Shown piece after piece: positions 6,510 to 51,777 of a stretch of 64,000 nt of DNA. Origin of the DNA: Flavobacterium sp. GSB-24. GTDB lineage: Bacteria > Bacteroidota > Bacteroidia > Flavobacteriales > Flavobacteriaceae. Where the stretch lies: contig NZ_AP027043.1 of assembly GCF_027924665.1 (NCBI RefSeq), positions 2,480,001 through 2,544,000 of the forward strand, in the 5' to 3' direction. How positions within the stretch are numbered: position 1 is the first letter of the stretch; each line of letters begins with the position of its first letter. The notes beneath the pieces are model-generated. The model worked only from the letters and a program-made list of their open reading frames with translations. It was not told the DNA's origin and did not search any database. Made by a program: the position numbers and the translations under genes.

Positions 6510-7829
6510 TTAACCCTTTTTAGTTTTCCTCAAAGCCAAAAACAAAGGATAAGATACAATGGTAATTCCAACAATGATTATAAAACTCTTAGGATCGCTG
6601 TAAATAAAACCTGCCAATAAAGCGATAGAAGCAATAATGGCTATTATCGTTGTCCATGGATACCAAAATGAACGGTAAGGTCTTGGCAAATTGGGCTCTG
6701 ATGTTCTTAGTTTTAAAAGAGAAAAGTAGGCAAGTCCCCAAACGATAATCGAGATAAAAGCAGCAAATGAAAACAGCACTTCAAAAGAACCGATGCAGAT
6801 CAAAAATAAACTTACGAAAGATGAAACTAACAATGCAACAATTGGCGTTCCTCCTTTATTGATTTGTGTTCCTTTTTCGATAAAAAATCCGTCACGGCTT
6901 AATCCGTAAAGAATTCGGGGCGGAATCATCATAAAAGCATTCAAAATACTAATTAGTGAAAAGATAGAAATTACAGTAACGATTACAGCGCCATTTTCTC
7001 CAAAAAGAATTTTCGCCACATCGGCCGCTGCGAGATTTGATTGAGCTAAAGTTTCGATTGGCAGTACGTGGAAAAATGCAGCATTTACCAAAACATAAAT
7101 TGCCATAACGAGTAAAACTCCACTATATAGTGACTTCGGAATATTTTTACTTGGATCATCATTTTCTTCGGCAAAAAAACAAGCGCTGTTCCAGCCATTA
7201 TAAGTTCCGATAATAAGTTGTAATGATTTAAAAAATCCAAAGATTAATCCGATTTGAAAGAAGCTGCTGTCTGTTTGAATCGCTGGCACTTCAACACCAG
7301 AATACATGAAACAAGCTACGACTAAAGCCACAAAACAAATCACTTTTAAAAAACTGGTAATCTGTTGGATAACACTTCCGTTTTTGACGCCACTTAAATG
7401 AATTAATACAAAAGCAGTCAAAAGTGAAATCGCTATTACTGTTGAATAACTAGCCAATGCTGGAAATAAAATGATAAGATATTCACTGATTACGATGCAA
7501 TAAAATGCAGGCGGAATAACATTTGTTATATAATCAAACCAGCCGGATAGAAAACCTGCATATTCGCCAAAAGCTCTTTTAATATAATTATAAGATCCTC
7601 CGGCTTTTGGTAACATTGTAGCCAGTTCTGCATAAGAATTAGCACCAAGCAAAACATAAAAACCGCCAAAAAGCCATGAAGCGATTATGAGCCAGTAATT
7701 ATTAAGCATTTCTGCGATTGTTCCTGGAGTTCGTAAAATTCCAACGCCGATTGTTCCTCCAATTAATACGGCAATGTTAAAACTAAGGCCTAAACTTTTC
7801 TTTAATTGGTTTTTGGTGGAATCTGACAT
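6510..7829 (-). CDS. APC-family amino acid permease
   Basis: The 439-residue polytopic membrane protein has about 12 hydrophobic segments. The first helix carries GGTIGVGILRTPG, the glycine-rich unwound TM1 signature of the APC superfamily, followed by the TM2-3 pattern 'GANSYAELATMLPKAGGSYNYI' that contacts the amino acid substrate. It is closest in feel to LAT/SteT-type exchangers; the substrate cannot be read from sequence. Single gene, with a perfect -7 box (TACTTTTG on the minus strand, 7863-7870) 34 bp upstream of the start. Confidence 0.9.
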   Translation of the reverse strand: MSDSTKNQLKKSLGLSFNIAVLIGGTIGVGILRTPGTIAEMLNNYWLIIASWLFGGFYVLLGANSYAELATMLPKAGGSYNYIKRAFGEYAGFLSGWFDYITNVIPPAFYCIVISEYLIILFPALASYSTVIAISLLTAFVLIHLSGVKNGSVIQQITSFLKVICFVALVVACFMYSGVEVPAIQTDSSFFQIGLIFGFFKSLQLIIGTYNGWNSACFFAEENDDPSKNIPKSLYSGVLLVMAIYVLVNAAFFHVLPIETLAQSNLAAADVAKILFGENGAVIVTVISIFSLISILNAFMMIPPRILYGLSRDGFFIEKGTQINKGGTPIVALLVSSFVSLFLICIGSFEVLFSFAAFISIIVWGLAYFSLLKLRTSEPNLPRPYRSFWYPWTTIIAIIASIALLAGFIYSDPKSFIIIVGITIVSYPLFLALRKTKKG

Positions 7830-45100: not shown

Positions 45101-45549
45101 AAGAATTAACCGATTTAGTCGAAGCAGCGGTTCTACAAGAATTCGACAGAATTACAGAAAGAGGAGGAGTTCTAGGCGCAATGGAAACTATGTACCAAAG
45201 ATCTAAAATTCAGGAAGAAAGTTTGTATTACGAAACCTTAAAACACAACGGAGATTTCCCAATTGTGGGTGTAAATACCTTCTTGAGTTCAAAAGGTTCA
45301 CCAACAGTAATTCCGGCTGAGGTTATTCGTGCAACTGAAGAAGAAAAACAATACCAGATTACGATGCTGGATAATCTGCATCAATTCCACGAAGCAAAAG
45401 TAAACGAGCATTTAAATACATTACAGCAAGCCGCTATTAAAAACGAAAACTTATTCGATCATTTAATGGAAGCTACAAAAGTTTGTTCGTTAGGGCAGAT
45501 TACTTCGGCTTTGTTTGAAGTGGGTGGGCAGTATAGAAGGAATATGTAA
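42109..45549 (+). CDS. icmF: Fused isobutyryl-CoA mutase (B12-domain, G-protein chaperone and mutase)
   Basis: The 1146-residue protein has three parts in the IcmF order. The B12-binding domain (about 10-145) has D23-G-H-D-A-A and G99GGGGV. The MeaB-like GTPase (about 195-410) has P-loop GTGGAGKS (203-210) and '[13 protein letters not shown]'. The mutase TIM-barrel and small-subunit region runs from about 560. It interconverts isobutyryl-CoA and n-butyryl-CoA (or isovaleryl/pivalyl-CoA) with adenosylcobalamin, and the fused GTPase gates cofactor loading. Adding the separate chaperone and both mutase parts in one chain is diagnostic of IcmF rather than MutAB. Single gene; a hairpin terminator follows. 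Confidence 0.95.
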
Positions 45550-45576
45550 AGATTTTATTTTTTTTAATATATGGAA

Positions 45577-45606
45577 AACCTCTCAAGATTTTGGGAGGTT
45601 TTTTTA
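45577..45606 (+). terminator. Terminator of icmF
   Basis: AACCTCTC pairs with GGGAGGTT (one mismatch) and is followed by a T-run; it sits 27 bp after the icmF stop. It separates icmF from the reverse-transcriptase leader. Confidence 0.8.
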
Positions 45607-45748
45607 TTCTTAGTAGTTTTTTTATTTTAAAATGTGGAAAACCGTACTTTAGTTTGAAAATTATTTGATTAATTTGAAAATTGTAAGAAATAATAGTGAA
45701 TAAGAGAGGGAGCCGAAAAATACGTTTTATGGTATAGAGTAAATCTAA

Positions 45749-46024
45749 CTCAACATTAAACGCTGTTGAGGAGGTCTAATTTCAGATATGCAAGAGAATA
45801 TTGAATAAATATCTCCTAAGCAATCTGTTATTCCCAGCGCTGTTAATAACAGATTGCTTAGGGATAATATGACTGGTATGTACTTATAGATGACTGGTTC
45901 TTTCATAGAATTTGAATTAATTTGTAAAGTTACAACAATAATTACCCGACTTGAAGGAGCGATGTTTAGGCATCAATAACGCATGTATTTTTCACATAAT
46001 AAAATTTGTAAAAGCAATGCTTCG
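45749..46024 (+). ncRNA. Candidate structured RNA (DRT-type template or regulator) before the reverse transcriptase
   Basis: There is no ORF of normal length in 45607-46059 but many foldable elements: CTCAACA/TGTTGAG (45749-45755 with 45764-45770); a 22-bp arm pair with one bulge (45810-45832 with 45845-45866, core CCTAAGCAATCTGTTATT) around a 12-nt loop; direct repeats ATGACTGGT at 45869 and 45890; palindrome TTGTAA-ag-TTACAA (45922-45935); GATG/CATC (45961-45974) and AAGC/GCTT (about 46013-46023). Some DRT systems place a template ncRNA at this position. No convincing -7/-33 pair was found, so the ends are uncertain. Confidence 0.5.
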
Positions 46025-46059
46025 TAGTCACCTTCTCTTTTTTCACTTTAAAAATTAAT

Positions 46060-47610
46060 ATGGCTGTAAATATACCAGTAGAAAAAAGCAAAGATTGGTT
46101 CAAATTAAAAAGGTATCCACATATTGGTTTTCCGTTGAAGTCACACGATCGTGCTGTTTGGATTGAAAATTATGTAACGAATTCTGAAAAAATTAGTAAA
46201 CATGACTTTCTTCCTTTCATTCATAAAAAAAGTAAAGTTAGAAAATTCAGAAAAGTTTATTCAAAAAAAACAGGGATATTAAAATATACTATTATAGATG
46301 GTAAAAAAGTATATCGTGTAGCAAGTAATAAAGAACGTGAATTGTTTTATGCAGGTCATCTAGATTCTTTGGTTTATAGTTATTACGCTGAAAAGTTGAC
46401 CAAGGATTATGAGAATATAATTTCGGAAAGAAAACTATCAGAAGTAGTTACTGCTTACAGAAAGATTCCGTTGAAAGAAAATTCAAAAAAAAATAAATGT
46501 AATATTGATTTTGCAATAGATGTTTTCAAATCAATTGAAGATTACCCTGACAAACATTTTATTGCTATTGCGTTTGATATTACCGGTTTTTTCGACAACT
46601 TAAACCACAAAAAACTTAGAATAAAGTGGAATGAAGTTATAGGTAATTCTGAAAAAGATATGCCTAAAGATCATTTTAACGTTTTCAAAAATATTACAAG
46701 ATTTAGTTATATTGATTTGGTTGATATTTTTAACGAATTTCAAGATAATATTTTTGTTAAAACAACCAAAAATTACAAGAAAGCCATCGCAAGAAAAAAA
46801 GTTTCAAAAATTAAATTTTTGAAAAAATCTGAAGCTATTGCATTTTGTACAAAAACAGAATTTATATCCAGATGTAAAAAACTTGTAAAAAAGAATAGGT
46901 TTATTAAAGATGAAAATGGTTTAGTTAAAACGAAAGATTTTGGAATTCCACAAGGGTCACCTATCAGTGCAATTTTAGCAAATATCTATATGTTGGATTT
47001 TGACTTTGAAATAAATGAACACATAAAAGGTATTAACGGTATATATAAGAGATATTCTGATGATATGGTGGTAATATGCCCATTAGATAAAAAACAAGAA
47101 GTGATTTCTCTTTTTAACAAAAAGATTGATGATATTAATTTAAGCATACAAGCTAAAAAAACTCAAGTATTTCATTTTCATCGTGATGGTAATTTATTAA
47201 AATGTGGTCAAGAATTTGAAAAACTGATAAATTTTGATAAAAATTTCATTTATCTAGGATTAGAGTTTGACGGTGTTGATGTAAAGATAAAATCAGCTAG
47301 TTTATCTGGATTTTATAGAAAAATGAAGCGAACGATTAAAAGAGCAAAACATTTCTCTACTTCTGCTAGTACCAAATATCCAGGTGAACTCTTCAAACGA
47401 AGATTATTAAATAGTTTTACATATAAAGGCGCTACCAGAAGAAAAAAATATGTTTATAATGCTAATAAAAAATATTTCGAAGTGTCAGAACACTTTGATT
47501 GGGGAAATTTCTTATCATATGCATACAAGGCGCAAGCTATAAAATTCCCAAACAAGATAAAGAGTCAAATTAAGAGGCATTGGAATAAAATAGACAAACT
47601 TCTTAAATAA
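46060..47610 (+). CDS. Reverse transcriptase of the UG/DRT (defence) type
   Basis: The 516-residue RNA-directed DNA polymerase has palm motif A FDITGFFDN (172-180, D173), motif B-type GIPQGSPISAILANIYM (295-311) and motif C RYSDDMVVI (331-339, D334 and D335). The fingers region (about 60-165) and a thumb (about 370-450) surround them. There is no maturase, HNH or endonuclease domain (not a group II intron RT). No VTG or NAxxH retron signatures were seen. The N-terminus WFKLKRYPHIGFPL and the AYRK motif at 132-135 fit the UG/DRT group, perhaps near DRT2 or DRT9, which I cannot resolve from memory. A structured leader precedes it, and a small conserved gene and a regulator follow. Confidence 0.85.
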   Translation: MAVNIPVEKSKDWFKLKRYPHIGFPLKSHDRAVWIENYVTNSEKISKHDFLPFIHKKSKVRKFRKVYSKKTGILKYTIIDGKKVYRVASNKERELFYAGHLDSLVYSYYAEKLTKDYENIISERKLSEVVTAYRKIPLKENSKKNKCNIDFAIDVFKSIEDYPDKHFIAIAFDITGFFDNLNHKKLRIKWNEVIGNSEKDMPKDHFNVFKNITRFSYIDLVDIFNEFQDNIFVKTTKNYKKAIARKKVSKIKFLKKSEAIAFCTKTEFISRCKKLVKKNRFIKDENGLVKTKDFGIPQGSPISAILANIYMLDFDFEINEHIKGINGIYKRYSDDMVVICPLDKKQEVISLFNKKIDDINLSIQAKKTQVFHFHRDGNLLKCGQEFEKLINFDKNFIYLGLEFDGVDVKIKSASLSGFYRKMKRTIKRAKHFSTSASTKYPGELFKRRLLNSFTYKGATRRKKYVYNANKKYFEVSEHFDWGNFLSYAYKAQAIKFPNKIKSQIKRHWNKIDKLLK

Positions 47611-47657
47611 TTTAGGCGATAATCGCTCACAGTAGCAAAACAACAAATCCATAAAGT

Positions 47658-47749
47658 TTGTCATTTCGACGAAAGGAGAAATCTTCGTCCACTGAGCACG
47701 CACTGCTGCGCAGCTACTTGCGAAGATTTCTCCTCCGTCGAAATGACAA
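47658..47749. repeat. Palindromic GTCATTTCGACGAAxGGAGAAATC intergenic repeat
   Basis: The left arm (47658-47687) is an imperfect inverted copy of the right arm (47721-47749), about 27 of 29 positions. The loop holds a second palindrome, GCTGCGCAGC (47705-47714). Diverged relatives are at 56131-56222 and 2728-2755. It is a REP-like mobile-hairpin family typical of Flavobacterium, between the RT gene and the small gene at 47834. Confidence 0.75.
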
Positions 47750-47833
47750 GATTGCGTAAAAACTTTGCGGCTTAGCTTCCGATAACTATCGGGATTGCGA
47801 GATTTTTTAACATTAGAACTCTGCAAATAGAAA

Positions 47834-48340: not shown

Positions 48341-48748
48341 ATGAGCACACTAACAAAACCAAATCATATAGGGCGAAAAATAAGCCGTATTCGTGAACTG
48401 CGAGATATGAAACAAGAAGCTTTGGCGCAGGCGTTAGGAACAAACCAGCAAGCAATTTCGGCTATGGAAAACAGCGAAACGATAGAAGAAGAAAGACTTG
48501 TTGAGGTGGCAAAAGCGCTTGGTGTATCGGTTGAAGCGATTAAGAATTTTTCAGACGAAGCAGCAATTAATTATTTTAATACTTTCAATGAAAGTCCTAA
48601 TAATTATTTTGGTCTAAACAATTGCACTTTCAATCCATTAGATAAATTAATGGAAACTGTAGAAGAGAATAAAAAGCTTTATGAGCGTTTGCTGAAAGCG
48701 GAACAAGATAAAATCGAATATTTAGAGAAACTATTAAAAAATAAATAA
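48341..48748 (+). CDS. XRE-family transcriptional regulator, 135 aa
   Basis: The N-terminal HTH (about 10-68) reads 'GRKISRIRELRDMKQEALAQALGTNQQAISAMENSETIEEERLVEVAKALGVSVEAI'. The C-terminal 30 residues form a coiled coil (NKKLYERLLKAEQDKIEYLEKLL) that may mediate dimerisation. A TATCTTTG box ends only 4 bp before the ATG, which would imply a leaderless transcript or a different promoter. It is divergent from the small conserved gene at 47834 and probably regulates it. Confidence 0.88.
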   Translation: MSTLTKPNHIGRKISRIRELRDMKQEALAQALGTNQQAISAMENSETIEEERLVEVAKALGVSVEAIKNFSDEAAINYFNTFNESPNNYFGLNNCTFNPLDKLMETVEENKKLYERLLKAEQDKIEYLEKLLKNK

Positions 48749-48826: not shown

Positions 48827-49213
48827 TTAACGGCGGAATCCTGGGCTATGATTAGCAGATTCGTCTAGTTTCACTGCTTTTACCTTTTTTGCAGCAACTT
48901 TAATTTCATGTTTCGCAACTTTGTCGTTTGCTTTCACTTCTAGAACATAAGTTCCAGCTGGAAAACTTTCTAAACTAATTGTTTTTGAAACTTCCAATTT
49001 ATTTGCTGCAGCGTCTCCTGCATAAAGTAAATTGTGATTCTCGTCGTAGATCGAGAAAGATGAATTCTCAACAGTGTCTAAAGTAAAGCTAACTACTTTT
49101 CCGTTTCCTGTTTTGATGTTTAAAATAAAATCACCTTTCCCATCAATGGCATAGGTAAACACAGTCGCTAAAAAAAAGGCAGCAACTAAACCGGCTTTGG
49201 TAAATTTTGTCAT
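48827..49213 (-). CDS. Secreted T9SS-CTD/DUF3244-like small beta-sandwich protein, paralogue 1
   Basis: The 128-residue protein has a signal peptide (to about 'FTYA', residue 22), then a small beta-sandwich: 'GKGDFILNIKTGNGKVVSFTLDTVENSSFSIYDENHNLLYAGDAAAN...LESFPAGTYVLEVKANDKVAKHEIKV'. The pattern of 'vslyd.nG.llys...' then 'l..fp.GtYvlev' is that of DUF3244 and T9SS C-terminal sorting folds, but here it is the whole protein. It differs most from the other three copies and lacks their upstream operator. Confidence 0.8.
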   Translation of the reverse strand: MTKFTKAGLVAAFFLATVFTYAIDGKGDFILNIKTGNGKVVSFTLDTVENSSFSIYDENHNLLYAGDAAANKLEVSKTISLESFPAGTYVLEVKANDKVAKHEIKVAAKKVKAVKLDESANHSPGFRR

Positions 49214-49485
49214 GTTTTTTTTAATTGTTAATTACTAAATGTGGAACGCGTAAAACTACAAATACAAATTTAATTTTTAGCAAAATTTTAGCATTTTTCG
49301 ATGCTTAAGTTGCTGAATTGTAATCAGATCTGTGTTTTGTTTGAACTATGTACGTAATTACTGGGCTCGCGGATTACTTTTTTTATGTTTTTTTTTAATG
49401 CTTGAAAATCAAACATTTGAATTAATAAGAATATTTTTTCAGAAAGAAATTAGTGTAAAAATTACATTTATATTTTAACGCAAAA

Positions 49486-49518
49486 AAAACAGCTCCGTAA
49501 CCAACCGCGAGCTGTTTT
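49486..49518. terminator. Terminator of paralogue 2
   Basis: AAAACAGCTC (49486-49495) pairs with GAGCTGTTTT (49509-49518), 13-nt loop. Near-identical hairpins follow paralogues 3 and 4. Confidence 0.8.
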
Positions 49519-49586
49519 TCTTCTTCAACAATAAAATATTCTAATTTTTTCTAACCTTATTTTATACCTGTAAAAAGTATAAAATA

Positions 49587-49988
49587 TTAACGTGTTGCAA
49601 CGCTTGTGTTTTTAGCAAAACCTGCTTTGTAAACAGAAGAAATCGCAGTTCTTGATAAAGCTGCATTTTCAGTTATTGTAATTTCGTATTTTGCTTTTTT
49701 TACGTTGTCTTCAACTTCTAAGAAATAAGTTCCCTCTGGAAATTCTTCTAGGCTGAAAGTTCTTAAGATTCCTTCTTTACCTGAAGCTGTTTCAGAATAA
49801 ATAAGTGTCCCATCTTTGTCATAAATAGCTAAATTGGCTTTCTGTACTTTGTTAAGTGCGAAAGTGATCAGTTTTCCATTAGCTTTTAATACGTGAAGAT
49901 TAAATTCTCCATTTCCGTCAATTGCGTAAGTGCTTATTCCTGTGAATAGCAACGCTGCTACTAAACTCAATTTTGCAATCTTTTTCAT
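49587..49988 (-). CDS. Secreted T9SS-CTD/DUF3244-like small protein, paralogue 2
   Basis: The 133-residue protein has signal MKKIAKLSLVAALLFTGISTYA, then 'IDGNGEFNLHVLKANGKLITFALNKVQKANLAIYDKDGTLIYSETASGKEGILRTFSLEEFPEGTYFLEVEDNVKKAKYEI'. It shares over 75% identity by eye with paralogue 3. The extracellular or periplasmic role is unknown; the abundance-type promoter (TTG-N23-TAATTTAG at 50029-50062) and the copied operator suggest inducible expression. The mature protein is about 111 residues. Confidence 0.85.
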   Translation of the reverse strand: MKKIAKLSLVAALLFTGISTYAIDGNGEFNLHVLKANGKLITFALNKVQKANLAIYDKDGTLIYSETASGKEGILRTFSLEEFPEGTYFLEVEDNVKKAKYEITITENAALSRTAISSVYKAGFAKNTSVATR

Positions 49989-50028
49989 GGTACTTAGTTT
50001 TTAAATTAATAGTTCTAATTCTCCGATG

Positions 50029-50062
50029 CTAAATTACTTACGAAATAGATGAAAAAGCGCAA
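50029..50062 (-). promoter_or_regulatory. Promoter of paralogue 2: TTG-N23-TAATTTAG
   Basis: Minus-strand TTG (CAA at 50060-50062) and TAATTTAG (CTAAATTA at 50029-50036) are spaced 23 bp, with the same spacing at paralogues 3 and 4. Confidence 0.65.
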
Positions 50063-50101
50063 CTGTGTTTTCCAATTTCTATGCTATATTCTCATTTACG
50101 A

Positions 50102-50115
50102 AACCGTTATAGGTT
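50102..50115. promoter_or_regulatory. Operator AACCGTTATAGGTT, copy 1
   Basis: A near-perfect dyad (AACC...GGTT) within a longer conserved ATTTACGAAACCGTTATAGG block, centred about 87 bp upstream of the inferred start of paralogue 2. Same geometry at copies 2 and 3. Confidence 0.7.
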
Positions 50116-50225
50116 AAAACTTGAATTATTTTTAACGTTTTTGTTAATTCGGTTATTTTTATTCAAAGTTTTGCTTGATTTTTTATTTACGTTGAATTAA
50201 GGATTTATTTACAAAAAGAATTGGT

Positions 50226-50335
50226 TTTTATCGCAGAGATTCGCAAAGTTTTCACAGAGATTCACAAAGTTTTTTTTACTAAGCTTTTGCGAATCTTCGT
50301 GCTTTACTTTGTGAAGCTCTGCGGTAAAAGCTAAA
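50226..50335. repeat. CGCAAAG-family repeat, copy 3
   Basis: ATCGCAGAGATTCGCAAAG and TTCACAAAGTTTT are followed by the inverted TTGCGAATCTTCGTGC and CTCTGCGGTAAAA arms. It belongs to the same family as 34755, 35703 and 51145. Confidence 0.6.
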
Positions 50336-50350
50336 AGTAAAGAGCAAAAA

Positions 50351-50382
50351 AAAACAGCTCTATAACCACAAAGAGCTGTTTT
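50351..50382. terminator. Terminator of paralogue 3
   Basis: AAAACAGCTC (50351-50360) pairs with GAGCTGTTTT (50373-50382). Confidence 0.8.
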
Positions 50383-50456
50383 TAAAACTTTAAAAGTTTT
50401 TAAACTTTACTAACTATCTAACCTCACTTTTATACTTTATGAGAGTATAAACTTTT

Positions 50457-50861
50457 TTAGCGTGTCGCCACACTTGTATTTTTTTCGAAACCTGGTTTAT
50501 AAACTGAAGAAACTGCATTTTGAGATAATACAGAAACATTATCAGTTACTTTAATTTCGTATTTTGATTTTTTCATATTGTCTTCAACTTCTAAGAAATA
50601 AGTTCCTTCTGGAAATTCTTCTAAGCTGAAAGTTCTCAAGATTCCATCTTTACCAGAAGCGGTTTCAGAATATATAAGAGATCCATCTTTATCATAAATA
50701 GATAAATTAGCTTTCTGAGTCTGATTAAGACCGAAAGTGATTAATTTTCCATTAGCTTTTAATACGTGAAGATTAAACTCCGCTGTTCCATCAATTGCAT
50801 ATGTGCTAATTCCTGTGAAAAGCAATGCAGCTACTAAACTCAATCTAACAATCTTTTTCAT
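50457..50861 (-). CDS. Secreted T9SS-CTD/DUF3244-like small protein, paralogue 3
   Basis: 134 residues; signal MKKIVRLSLVAALLFTGISTYA and the same core as paralogue 2 ('FNLHVLKANGKLITFGLNQTQKANLSIYDKDGSLIYSETASGKDGILRTFSLEEFPEGTYFLEVEDN'), both ending KNTSVATR. This identity of the C-terminus in paralogues 2 and 3 supports recent duplication. Role unknown. Confidence 0.85.
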   Translation of the reverse strand: MKKIVRLSLVAALLFTGISTYAIDGTAEFNLHVLKANGKLITFGLNQTQKANLSIYDKDGSLIYSETASGKDGILRTFSLEEFPEGTYFLEVEDNMKKSKYEIKVTDNVSVLSQNAVSSVYKPGFEKNTSVATR

Positions 50862-50901
50862 AGTATTTAGTTTTAAAATTAATAGTTCTAATTCTCTGAT
50901 G

Positions 50902-50935
50902 CTAAATTACTTCAGTTGTAAGTAAAAAATCACAA
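50902..50935 (-). promoter_or_regulatory. Promoter of paralogue 3: TTG-N23-TAATTTAG
   Basis: CTAAATTA at 50902-50909 and CAA at 50933-50935 on the plus strand give TAATTTAG and TTG on the minus strand, spaced 23 bp. Confidence 0.65.
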
Positions 50936-50974
50936 CTATATTTTCCTATTTCTATGCTGTATTCTCATTTACGA

Positions 50975-50988
50975 AACCGTTATAGGTT
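50975..50988. promoter_or_regulatory. Operator AACCGTTATAGGTT, copy 2
   Basis: Identical 14-mer, centred about 87 bp upstream of the inferred start of paralogue 3, within the same conserved flank. Confidence 0.7.
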
Positions 50989-51144
50989 AAAATTTGAATT
51001 ATTTTTATCGTTTTCGTTAATTCAGTTGTTATTTTTCAACGTTTTTGATGATTTTTAGTTTACATTGAATTAAAGATTTCTTTAATAATTGTAGGAATTG
51101 AACAATAAAGGTTAACAGTTAAGCGGCCAAAGATTTTTTATAGC

Positions 51145-51235
51145 TAGTCATAAAAACGCAAAATTCGCAAAGCTTTGTAAAATAAAACTTTGCGAACTTT
51201 GTGTAAATCTTAGCGCTCTTTGCGGTTAAGAAACT
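51145..51235. repeat. CGCAAAG-family repeat, copy 4
   Basis: AAACGCAAAATTCGCAAAGC and inverted GCGAACTTTGTG, then GCGCTCTTTGCGG arms. It lies in the paralogue 3-4 spacer. Confidence 0.6.
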
Positions 51236-51267
51236 ATGCGACCCGAAAGTAAAGAGCAAAAAAAAAA

Positions 51268-51299
51268 AAAACAGCTCAGTAACCACAAAGAGCTGTTTT
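51268..51299. terminator. Terminator of paralogue 4
   Basis: AAAACAGCTC (51268-51277) pairs with GAGCTGTTTT (51290-51299), preceded by a long A-run. Confidence 0.8.
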
Positions 51300-51411
51300 T
51301 AAAACTTTTGAAAGTTTTTAACTTACTAACTATCTAACCTCACTTTTTATACTGTATTAGAGTATAAAACTTTTAAGTGCTGTGAAGTATGCACTTAACC
51401 TTAATATTTTC

Positions 51412-51777
51412 TTAGTTATTTGAAGTAGTTCCTTTTGAAGACAAAACAGAACTATTTGCATTTACAGTAATATCGTATTTTACTTTTTTGAAAGTATCAG
51501 CAACTTCTAAAATGTATTTTCCTTGTGGAAATTCTTCTAAGCTGAAAGTTCTCAAAATACCATCTTTACCAGAAGCGTTTTCAGTATAGATTAAGTTACC
51601 GTTTGTATCATATATACTAATAACTGCTTTCTGAAGTTGGTTAATACCAAAAGCAATTACCTTGCCATTTCCTTTTAATACATGAAGATTTAGAGCTTCA
51701 TTTCCATCAATTGCATAAGTACTCATTCCAGTTAAAAGCACTGCACATACTAAACTTAATTTCATAATCTTTTTCAT
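51412..51777 (-). CDS. Secreted T9SS-CTD/DUF3244-like small protein, paralogue 4
   Basis: 121 residues; signal MKKIMKLSLVCAVLLTGMSTYA and core 'IDGNEALNLHVLKGNGKVIAFGINQLQKAVISIYDTNGNLIYTENASGKDGILRTFSLEEFPQGKYILEVADTFKKVKYDI'. The C-terminus is shorter and lacks the VATR tail of paralogues 2 and 3. It lies nearest the AraC gene, from which it is divergent. Confidence 0.85.
   Translation of the reverse strand: MKKIMKLSLVCAVLLTGMSTYAIDGNEALNLHVLKGNGKVIAFGINQLQKAVISIYDTNGNLIYTENASGKDGILRTFSLEEFPQGKYILEVADTFKKVKYDITVNANSSVLSSKGTTSNN

Follow-up and report, generated by a model that had tools for sequence, protein, structure and literature searches.

The closest described system is the DRT2 of Klebsiella pneumoniae. 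According to the covered sections of PMC12039810 and PMC11100668, it consists of a single reverse transcriptase (RT) with a structured non-coding RNA (ncRNA) upstream, whose central template gives a reverse-complement concatemer that is free of stop codons and has a length that is a multiple of three. The junction between units rebuilds a promoter and the product, called Neo, is hydrophobic; the template is the least conserved part of this ncRNA, and telomerase is modelled as re-aligning to a template edge that is repeated (both in PMC12039810). Diverse DRT2s were predicted to make possibly quite different cDNAs, some of them rebuilding phage-specific promoters (PMC12039810), whilst Neo was described as harder to annotate in divergent DRT2 clades, left unnamed in the covered sections of PMC11100668, where alternative mechanisms would be possible. 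Other systems are less alike. DRT9 also has an RT with an adjacent ncRNA, but in the covered parts of PMC12483538 and PMC12489045 its synthesis is protein-primed and homopolymeric, as opposed to the long coding template predicted here. DRT10 (PMC12632851, in the part covered) and telomerase share the RNA-templated synthesis of tandem-repeat DNA; in the present case, however, the predicted unit is long and carries a reading frame and a promoter, and the RT itself matches DRT2 models best.

The locus studied in this work lies in a stretch of 64,000 nt from Flavobacterium sp. GSB-24 (hereafter the window), and is in all likelihood an anti-phage system of DRT2 type that belongs to a branch within Bacteroidota, with a neo gene that would be written as tandem cDNA, be transcribed from a junction promoter and arrest growth. 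The RT family, the structured ncRNA, the boundaries of the template (from repeat, promoter and frame taken together) and the conservation of these boundaries were all computed here. The locus shares with the Klebsiella system the single RT, the upstream structured ncRNA and, by prediction, the central template with its stop-free concatemer in multiples of three, the promoter rebuilt at the junction and the hydrophobic Neo. It differs in the length of the RT (516 against 425 amino acids, 29% identical in the fold alignment), of the inferred ncRNA (about 338 against 280 nt) and of the unit (162 against 120 nt), in its promoter (TTTG/TAnnTTTG-type with 20-nt spacing, against TTGACA/TATAAT with 17) and in its jump motif (a lineage-variable repeat of 3-8 nt, against ACA). 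As the DRT2 family is already known, the new part is the Bacteroidota promoter together with the variable jump repeats; the literature searched gave no account of Neo for any DRT2 from Bacteroidota, an earlier notice being possible.

The system would work as follows. The RT would bind the ncRNA, copy positions 45777-45938 and then jump from the left to the right of two TAATT repeats, resulting in tandem cDNA repeats of 162 nt. Once a second strand is made, each repeat junction would form the promoter CTTG-N20-TAACTTTA, the transcript of which would carry a stop-free frame of 54 codons per unit, beginning MKEPVIYKYIPVILSLSNLL. This frame would yield a repetitive hydrophobic Neo protein, and Neo would halt the growth of the infected cell. 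RNP formation, priming, the phage trigger, second-strand synthesis, transcription, translation and growth arrest are taken from the Klebsiella work (covered sections of PMC12039810, PMC11100668 and PMC12596737) and would hold here by analogy.

Predicted template boundaries, junction promoter and hidden frame

The predicted template of 162 nt (45777-45938, plus strand), whose minus-strand concatemer would be the neo gene, starts at its 5′ end with the left jump repeat TAATT (45777-45781) and is followed by the right copy, the putative landing site (45939-45943). On the minus strand, the predicted junction promoter has its -33 element CTTG at 45791-45794 and its -7 element TAACTTTA at 45925-45932; in genomic order the two are 130 bp apart and reversed, and only after the jump do they come to lie 20 nt from each other (14 + 6 nt). 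This promoter order was missing from the linear minus strand at all five loci checked. The first in-frame ATG of neo (45904-45906, minus strand) stands 18 nt past the -7 element, and the unit has one stop-free frame, of 54 residues, VVTLQINSNSMKEPVIYKYIPVILSLSNLLLTALGITDCLGDIYSIFSCISEII. As expected of the Neo mechanism, the antisense concatemer predicted for this template is stop-free and a multiple of three in length, and, by motif only, a promoter is rebuilt across its junction.

The same layout is seen in relatives. In the first 13 relatives looked at, the minus strand of the variable leader middle has a long open frame that is hydrophobic and meets stops at differing sites on the 5′ side of the RNA. 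Across the 32 tabulated loci the unit measures 114-162 nt, the spacing is 20 nt throughout even though 19-21 were allowed, and an in-frame ATG follows the junction -7 box by 6-26 nt in every case; the alternative minus-strand frames of these 32 units are stop-free in two of 64 cases, and the plus-strand frames in 13 of 96. The jump repeat changes with the lineage (TAATT or AATT, TATTTC, TATTTTAC, ATACC, ATTC, AATTC, ATTTC and others), and the left and right copies of a locus match each other over 4.7 nt on average, compared to 2.8 nt across lineages. Permutation of eight lineage representatives reached the observed repeat sum in 70 of 40320 cases (355 of 40320 in a weaker second set), a test that is partly circular, since nearly all loci had been selected for having a repeat of 4 nt or more.

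The Bacteroidetes promoter consensus is TTTG/TANNTTTG in the covered part of PMC6847099, where the -7 box of many Flavobacterium johnsoniae promoters is separated from the start by 4-5 nt and the -33 box is weakly conserved. By our own arithmetic, TTTG ending at -33 and a -7 box at -12 to -5 leave a gap of 20 nt. The window's junction CTTG-N20-TAACTTTA is predicted, as far as the motif goes, to be a Bacteroidota-type promoter without counterpart in the linear locus; that its -33 box reads CTTG, and that F. johnsoniae conserves this box little, counts against the assignment. Since E. coli and Bacteroidetes, for promoter reasons, do not express each other's genes (same source, in the part covered), a junction promoter of the host's type would support natural transcription of the concatemer. 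A Klebsiella-like junction promoter (TTGACA/TATAAT) occurs in only one of the 32 loci of the window's group, and the junction predicted for the window's own locus shows neither this promoter nor the published ACA motif.

Other motifs were tried and rejected. The ACA rule gave stop-free units in 15 of the 32 loci of the window's group, one of them with a sigma-70-like junction, and the copies in the window are TAATT; the ACA-rule units measured 93-132 nt, with no promoter, in the four loci listed. Among the gammaproteobacterial DRT2 controls the same rule worked in one of two, since it found one stop-free unit of 105 nt in L067 and none in L068. CAACA, which occurs both in the 5′ hairpin and on the right-hand edge, was dropped as jump repeat: its phases differ, and that side is interrupted by stops in leaders L006, L010 and L011. 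A 17-nt spacing for L010 was likewise given up, in favor of 20 nt with ATTT.

Could such a geometry arise by chance? Before any scan was run, inspection of 13 leaders by eye had supplied the motifs. The geometry scan imposed no reading frame and covered 66 leaders, from which L002 (a duplicate of L005) and the controls L067 and L068 were excluded; it required that the two ends of the template share a repeat of 4 nt or more and that the junction read [TC]TTG-Nx-TAnnTTT[GA], with x from 12 to 28. The geometry with x = 20 was found in 32 of the 66 leaders, against 2.7 under a Markov null, and the candidate length was a multiple of three in 30 of these 32 loci (two have a candidate with remainder 1, and one with remainder 2). 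Those 30 are all stop-free (null 0.10), whilst any other x gave stop-free candidates in at most six of the 66 leaders. Of the 30 stop-free loci, 18 are outside the 13 leaders from which the motifs were taken, and confirm these motifs.

The midpoint-rooted RT tree contains a group of 36 Bacteroidota RTs (support 98/97), which was defined after the scan and takes in the 32 tabulated loci. A strict test within this group, run on leaders of 420 nt, required a repeat of 4 nt or longer, a spacing of 20 nt and a stop-free unit with a length divisible by three. It was passed by 31 of 36 (null mean 0.18, with a maximum of 2 in 200 runs), by none on the opposite strand, and by 20 of 25 after thinning by hand. 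Relaxed motifs add L034 (3-nt repeat), L043 (8-nt repeat, -7 box TATATTGT) and L053 (repeat ATACC, -7 box TATATTGC), bringing the count up to 34 of 36. L036, on a long branch of the tree, passes strictly only with a longer leader, and L049 has a stop-free unit of 153 nt, yet a poor -7 box at 19 nt. In the leader of F. tistrianum (L003, RT 83% identical; 2713-2879) the unit is 167 nt long, a length that three does not divide, and the frame is interrupted; this natural exception retains both RT and ncRNA.

Beyond the group, the 20-nt peak was not seen in the 30 remaining leaders, of which one passed, and a further scan gave small excesses at 15 and 19 nt (four of 34 each; nulls 0.05 and 0.15). 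The sister group of 28 RTs (mostly L021-L033 and L054-L064) has conserved leaders of its own, with, for instance, GTCGAGAACTCGGCTAATGGTTCA in part of them, and several show minus-strand boxes resembling TAnnTTTG close to a conserved CGTA; a search of its leaders gave no rule for the template boundary.

These results suggest that the gene-writing immune mechanism is present in Bacteroidota in an adapted form. We consider it probable that DRT2 gene writing is tuned to the host, with the Bacteroidota neo promoter arising only across the cDNA junction, to suit the unusual sigma factor of the phylum, and with jumping directed by a short, lineage-variable repeat of 3-8 nt in a constant position instead of ACA. 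The -7 boxes of L043 and L053 are of the TAnnTTGY form, so neo may there join another regulon; in F. psychrophilum that form is motif SM5, which an alternative sigma factor most likely recognises (PMC9723704, in the part covered). A divergent clade would then give a clear computed answer, namely the same trick with the promoter of the host's phylum, and the rule (fixed-place repeat, 20-nt spacing, multiple of three) could be used to search for hidden genes in other clades.

The neo frame seems to be kept and its residues only loosely so, as purifying selection on the predicted protein appears weak: pN/pS is below 1 in 12 of the 17 computable pairs and above 1 in five, with one further pair uncomputable, and the values of 0.23-0.31 among the window's nearest relatives come from few differences (4-15 nt). 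The Klebsiella template region is likewise the least conserved of its ncRNA. Weak selection of this kind, the interrupted frame of F. tistrianum in the presence of RT and ncRNA, and the homopolymer or repeat DNA of other DRTs (in the sources as far as covered) would also fit a DRT2-type RT whose tandem cDNA is made as proposed, but where the repetitive cDNA or RNA is itself the effector and the stop-free frame a by-product. Such a by-product should hardly be in frame and stop-free at 31 of 36 loci, with a null mean of 0.18 and no case on the opposite strand, nor have a unit in multiples of three at 30 of the 32 loci picked by geometry only, nor an ATG 6-26 nt past the junction promoter at every one of the 32 tabulated loci. 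We therefore hold an effector made of nucleic acid to be unlikely, although it is the strongest competitor of a protein-coding neo gene.

Reverse transcriptase and leader RNA

The gene at 46060-47610 (plus strand) encodes a DRT2-type RT of 516 amino acids, with D173 in motif A and Y332-S-D334-D335 in motif C. These three aspartates (D173, D334 and D335) do not vary across 58 aligned sequences, i.e., the window's RT and 57 of 120 homologues among the matches listed. The Drt2 model of PADLOC (PDLC03757) covers nearly the whole protein with 443 bits (E 4.1e-133), the runner-up being RT_UG17 with 73 bits (E 5.5e-21 for the best non-DRT2 family), and matches all 58 aligned sequences, the window's RT included. 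The NCBIfam Drt2 equivalog (NF041746) gives 347.1 bits, under its cut-off of 390, which is the limit of one model and not a definition of the family; judged by these scores, the RT is a divergent branch of DRT2. Searching the PDB by sequence, the best chains were those of the DRT2 entries 9lje and 9c0i (E 9e-50). An AlphaFold model of the RT (pLDDT 84, built with the 58 sequences) was closest in Foldseek to 9c0i (E 7.6e-35, TM 0.71/0.85), which we take to be the DRT2 of Klebsiella pneumoniae, and DRT9 was the second-best fold match (E 2.6e-11).

HMM and fold together thus place the RT best in DRT2, by a wide margin over other families. This margin, along with a predicted template of 114-162 nt with a coding frame in 32 loci, makes it very improbable that the ncRNA templates short or homopolymer repeats in the manner of DRT9 or DRT10, in spite of the RT fold and adjacent ncRNA that are common to DRT9 (in its reports as far as covered). 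The group II intron and retron models stay far below their cut-offs (group_II_RT_mat 71.4 bits against 300; retron St85 45.9 bits against 235). An earlier, sequence-only reading of the window had described an RT with intact A and C motifs and without a partner domain of introns or retrons, and the intact motifs are borne out; the hidden gene had escaped that reading. Its proposal of a DRT-type RT with an adjacent template ncRNA gains support from the Drt2 score of 443 bits and the fold of 9c0i; binding and copying of this RNA by the RT would follow the Klebsiella example. Its suggestion of an undescribed subgroup stands in part: the family, DRT2, is already described, but the Bacteroidota branch does differ in promoter type, jump motif and NCBIfam score.

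Upstream of the RT, the predicted template ncRNA spans about 338 nt (45702-46039, plus strand), with ends placed by a predicted closing helix, whose 5′ arm AAGAGAGGG lies at 45702-45710 and whose 3′ arm CCTTCTCTT lies at 46031-46039. Within it are a hairpin CTCAACA-TTAAACGC-TGTTGAG (45749-45770), whose pairs show double changes and which is possibly the counterpart of the 5′ handle, a 17-bp hairpin inside the template (45816-45861, where 45816-45832 pair with 45845-45861) and the 3′ scaffold (45944-46039; 45944-46051 in our covariance model R1), all on the plus strand. The leaders of relatives share a layout of 5′ segment, hairpin with double changes, variable middle and conserved 3′ scaffold, and their consensus shows conserved 3′ helices; a 3′ scaffold of the DRT2 kind would comprise a tower, a buttress and a pseudoknot. 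The region 45702-46039 folds with -88.4 kcal/mol (z -4.8), and none of 100 shuffles is equally stable.

The sequence-only reading had also pointed to a leader without normal ORF, and rightly so, as none of at least 60 amino acids (ATG, GTG or TTG start) is present in 45549-46060 on either strand. Conserved secondary structure in homologous leaders, which it had named as a test, was found in the form of double changes at nine of 24 consensus pairs (12 leader sequences). The interval it gave, from 45607 onward, does contain the structured leader (the z-score being that given above), but its start is flank, since conservation in the less close relatives (L006-L009) begins only near 45694.

The two ends of the RNA can pair in relatives as well. 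When the 5′ flank of a locus is paired with its 3′ flank, the best helix has 7-17 bp and a score of 17-38 (mean 22.5; 33 loci), as against a mean of 16.2 for cross-lineage pairings (n=880), 4.3% of which reach the own-pair median; the test took the best helix of each locus, and its position is not always equivalent. In most loci an end helix sits at a similar place with differing sequences (AAGAGAAGG/CCTTCTCTT, GGTAAACGG/CCGTTTACC, GGGGGCAGA/TCTGCCCCC), whilst in L010, L011, L035 and L042 the best one is short or located elsewhere. An ordinary structured 5′ UTR, or the remnant of a retron or intron, would account for a leader that directly precedes the RT start codon, but hardly for this end pairing, the double changes at nine of 24 pairs, the coding and promoter signals on the minus strand and an RT placed in DRT2, and we give it very little credence.

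At gathering scores, no Rfam family matches the window. Model R1, built for the 3′ scaffold only from the window's locus and 14 others (6 base pairs), matches 11 of 299 Flavobacterium genomes, once each and adjoining the RT; as all 11 had supplied R1 sequences, this shows only the absence of further copies. A weak R1 match at 7308-7418 (minus strand; 18.9 bits, E 0.05) is probably due to chance.

Distribution and genomic setting

The RT is common but patchy in the samples searched. At E 1e-40 it occurs in 40 of the 398 genomes sampled from Flavobacterium and in 10 of the 395 sampled from the phylum; at E 1e-60 it occurs in 25 of 397 from the family and seven of 395 from the class. The samples overlap and each count includes the window's own genome. 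In the Flavobacterium search, 11 of 41 matching places were assigned no locus and left out of the locus set. Plasmid and phage records hold distant relatives only (36 plasmid records, all below 60% identity; three phage records, at 29-33%), and in viral contigs one stretch matched a pattern and none encoded a relative.

The neighbours of the cassette are a fused gene of methylmalonyl-CoA-mutase type on one side and a gene for an XRE-type regulator on the other, a small ORF also lying in between; the cassette has the same position in genomes G063 and G284. The site (45608-47712) is variable: the same-species genome G230 is without the cassette and has ORFs of 206, 217 and 89 amino acids instead, the first two alike by eye and with no Pfam or PADLOC match, which are candidates for accessory or defence cargo. 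The absence from G230 could be taken to mean that the window holds a decayed or inactive DRT2 copy; with catalytic residues intact, a template unit in frame and G063 and G284 retaining the cassette in this position, the odds of this are slight.

Three further observations concern the DNA behind the RT. At 47659-47750 there is an imperfect inverted repeat, like a dispersed hairpin element, with many matches in the five related genomes searched, among the matches listed. For the region of the XRE-type regulator gene (48341-48748), each of five Flavobacterium genomes likewise gives several more, again among the matches listed. Finally, a row of four similar small ORFs with signal-like starts occupies 48827-51777 on the minus strand.
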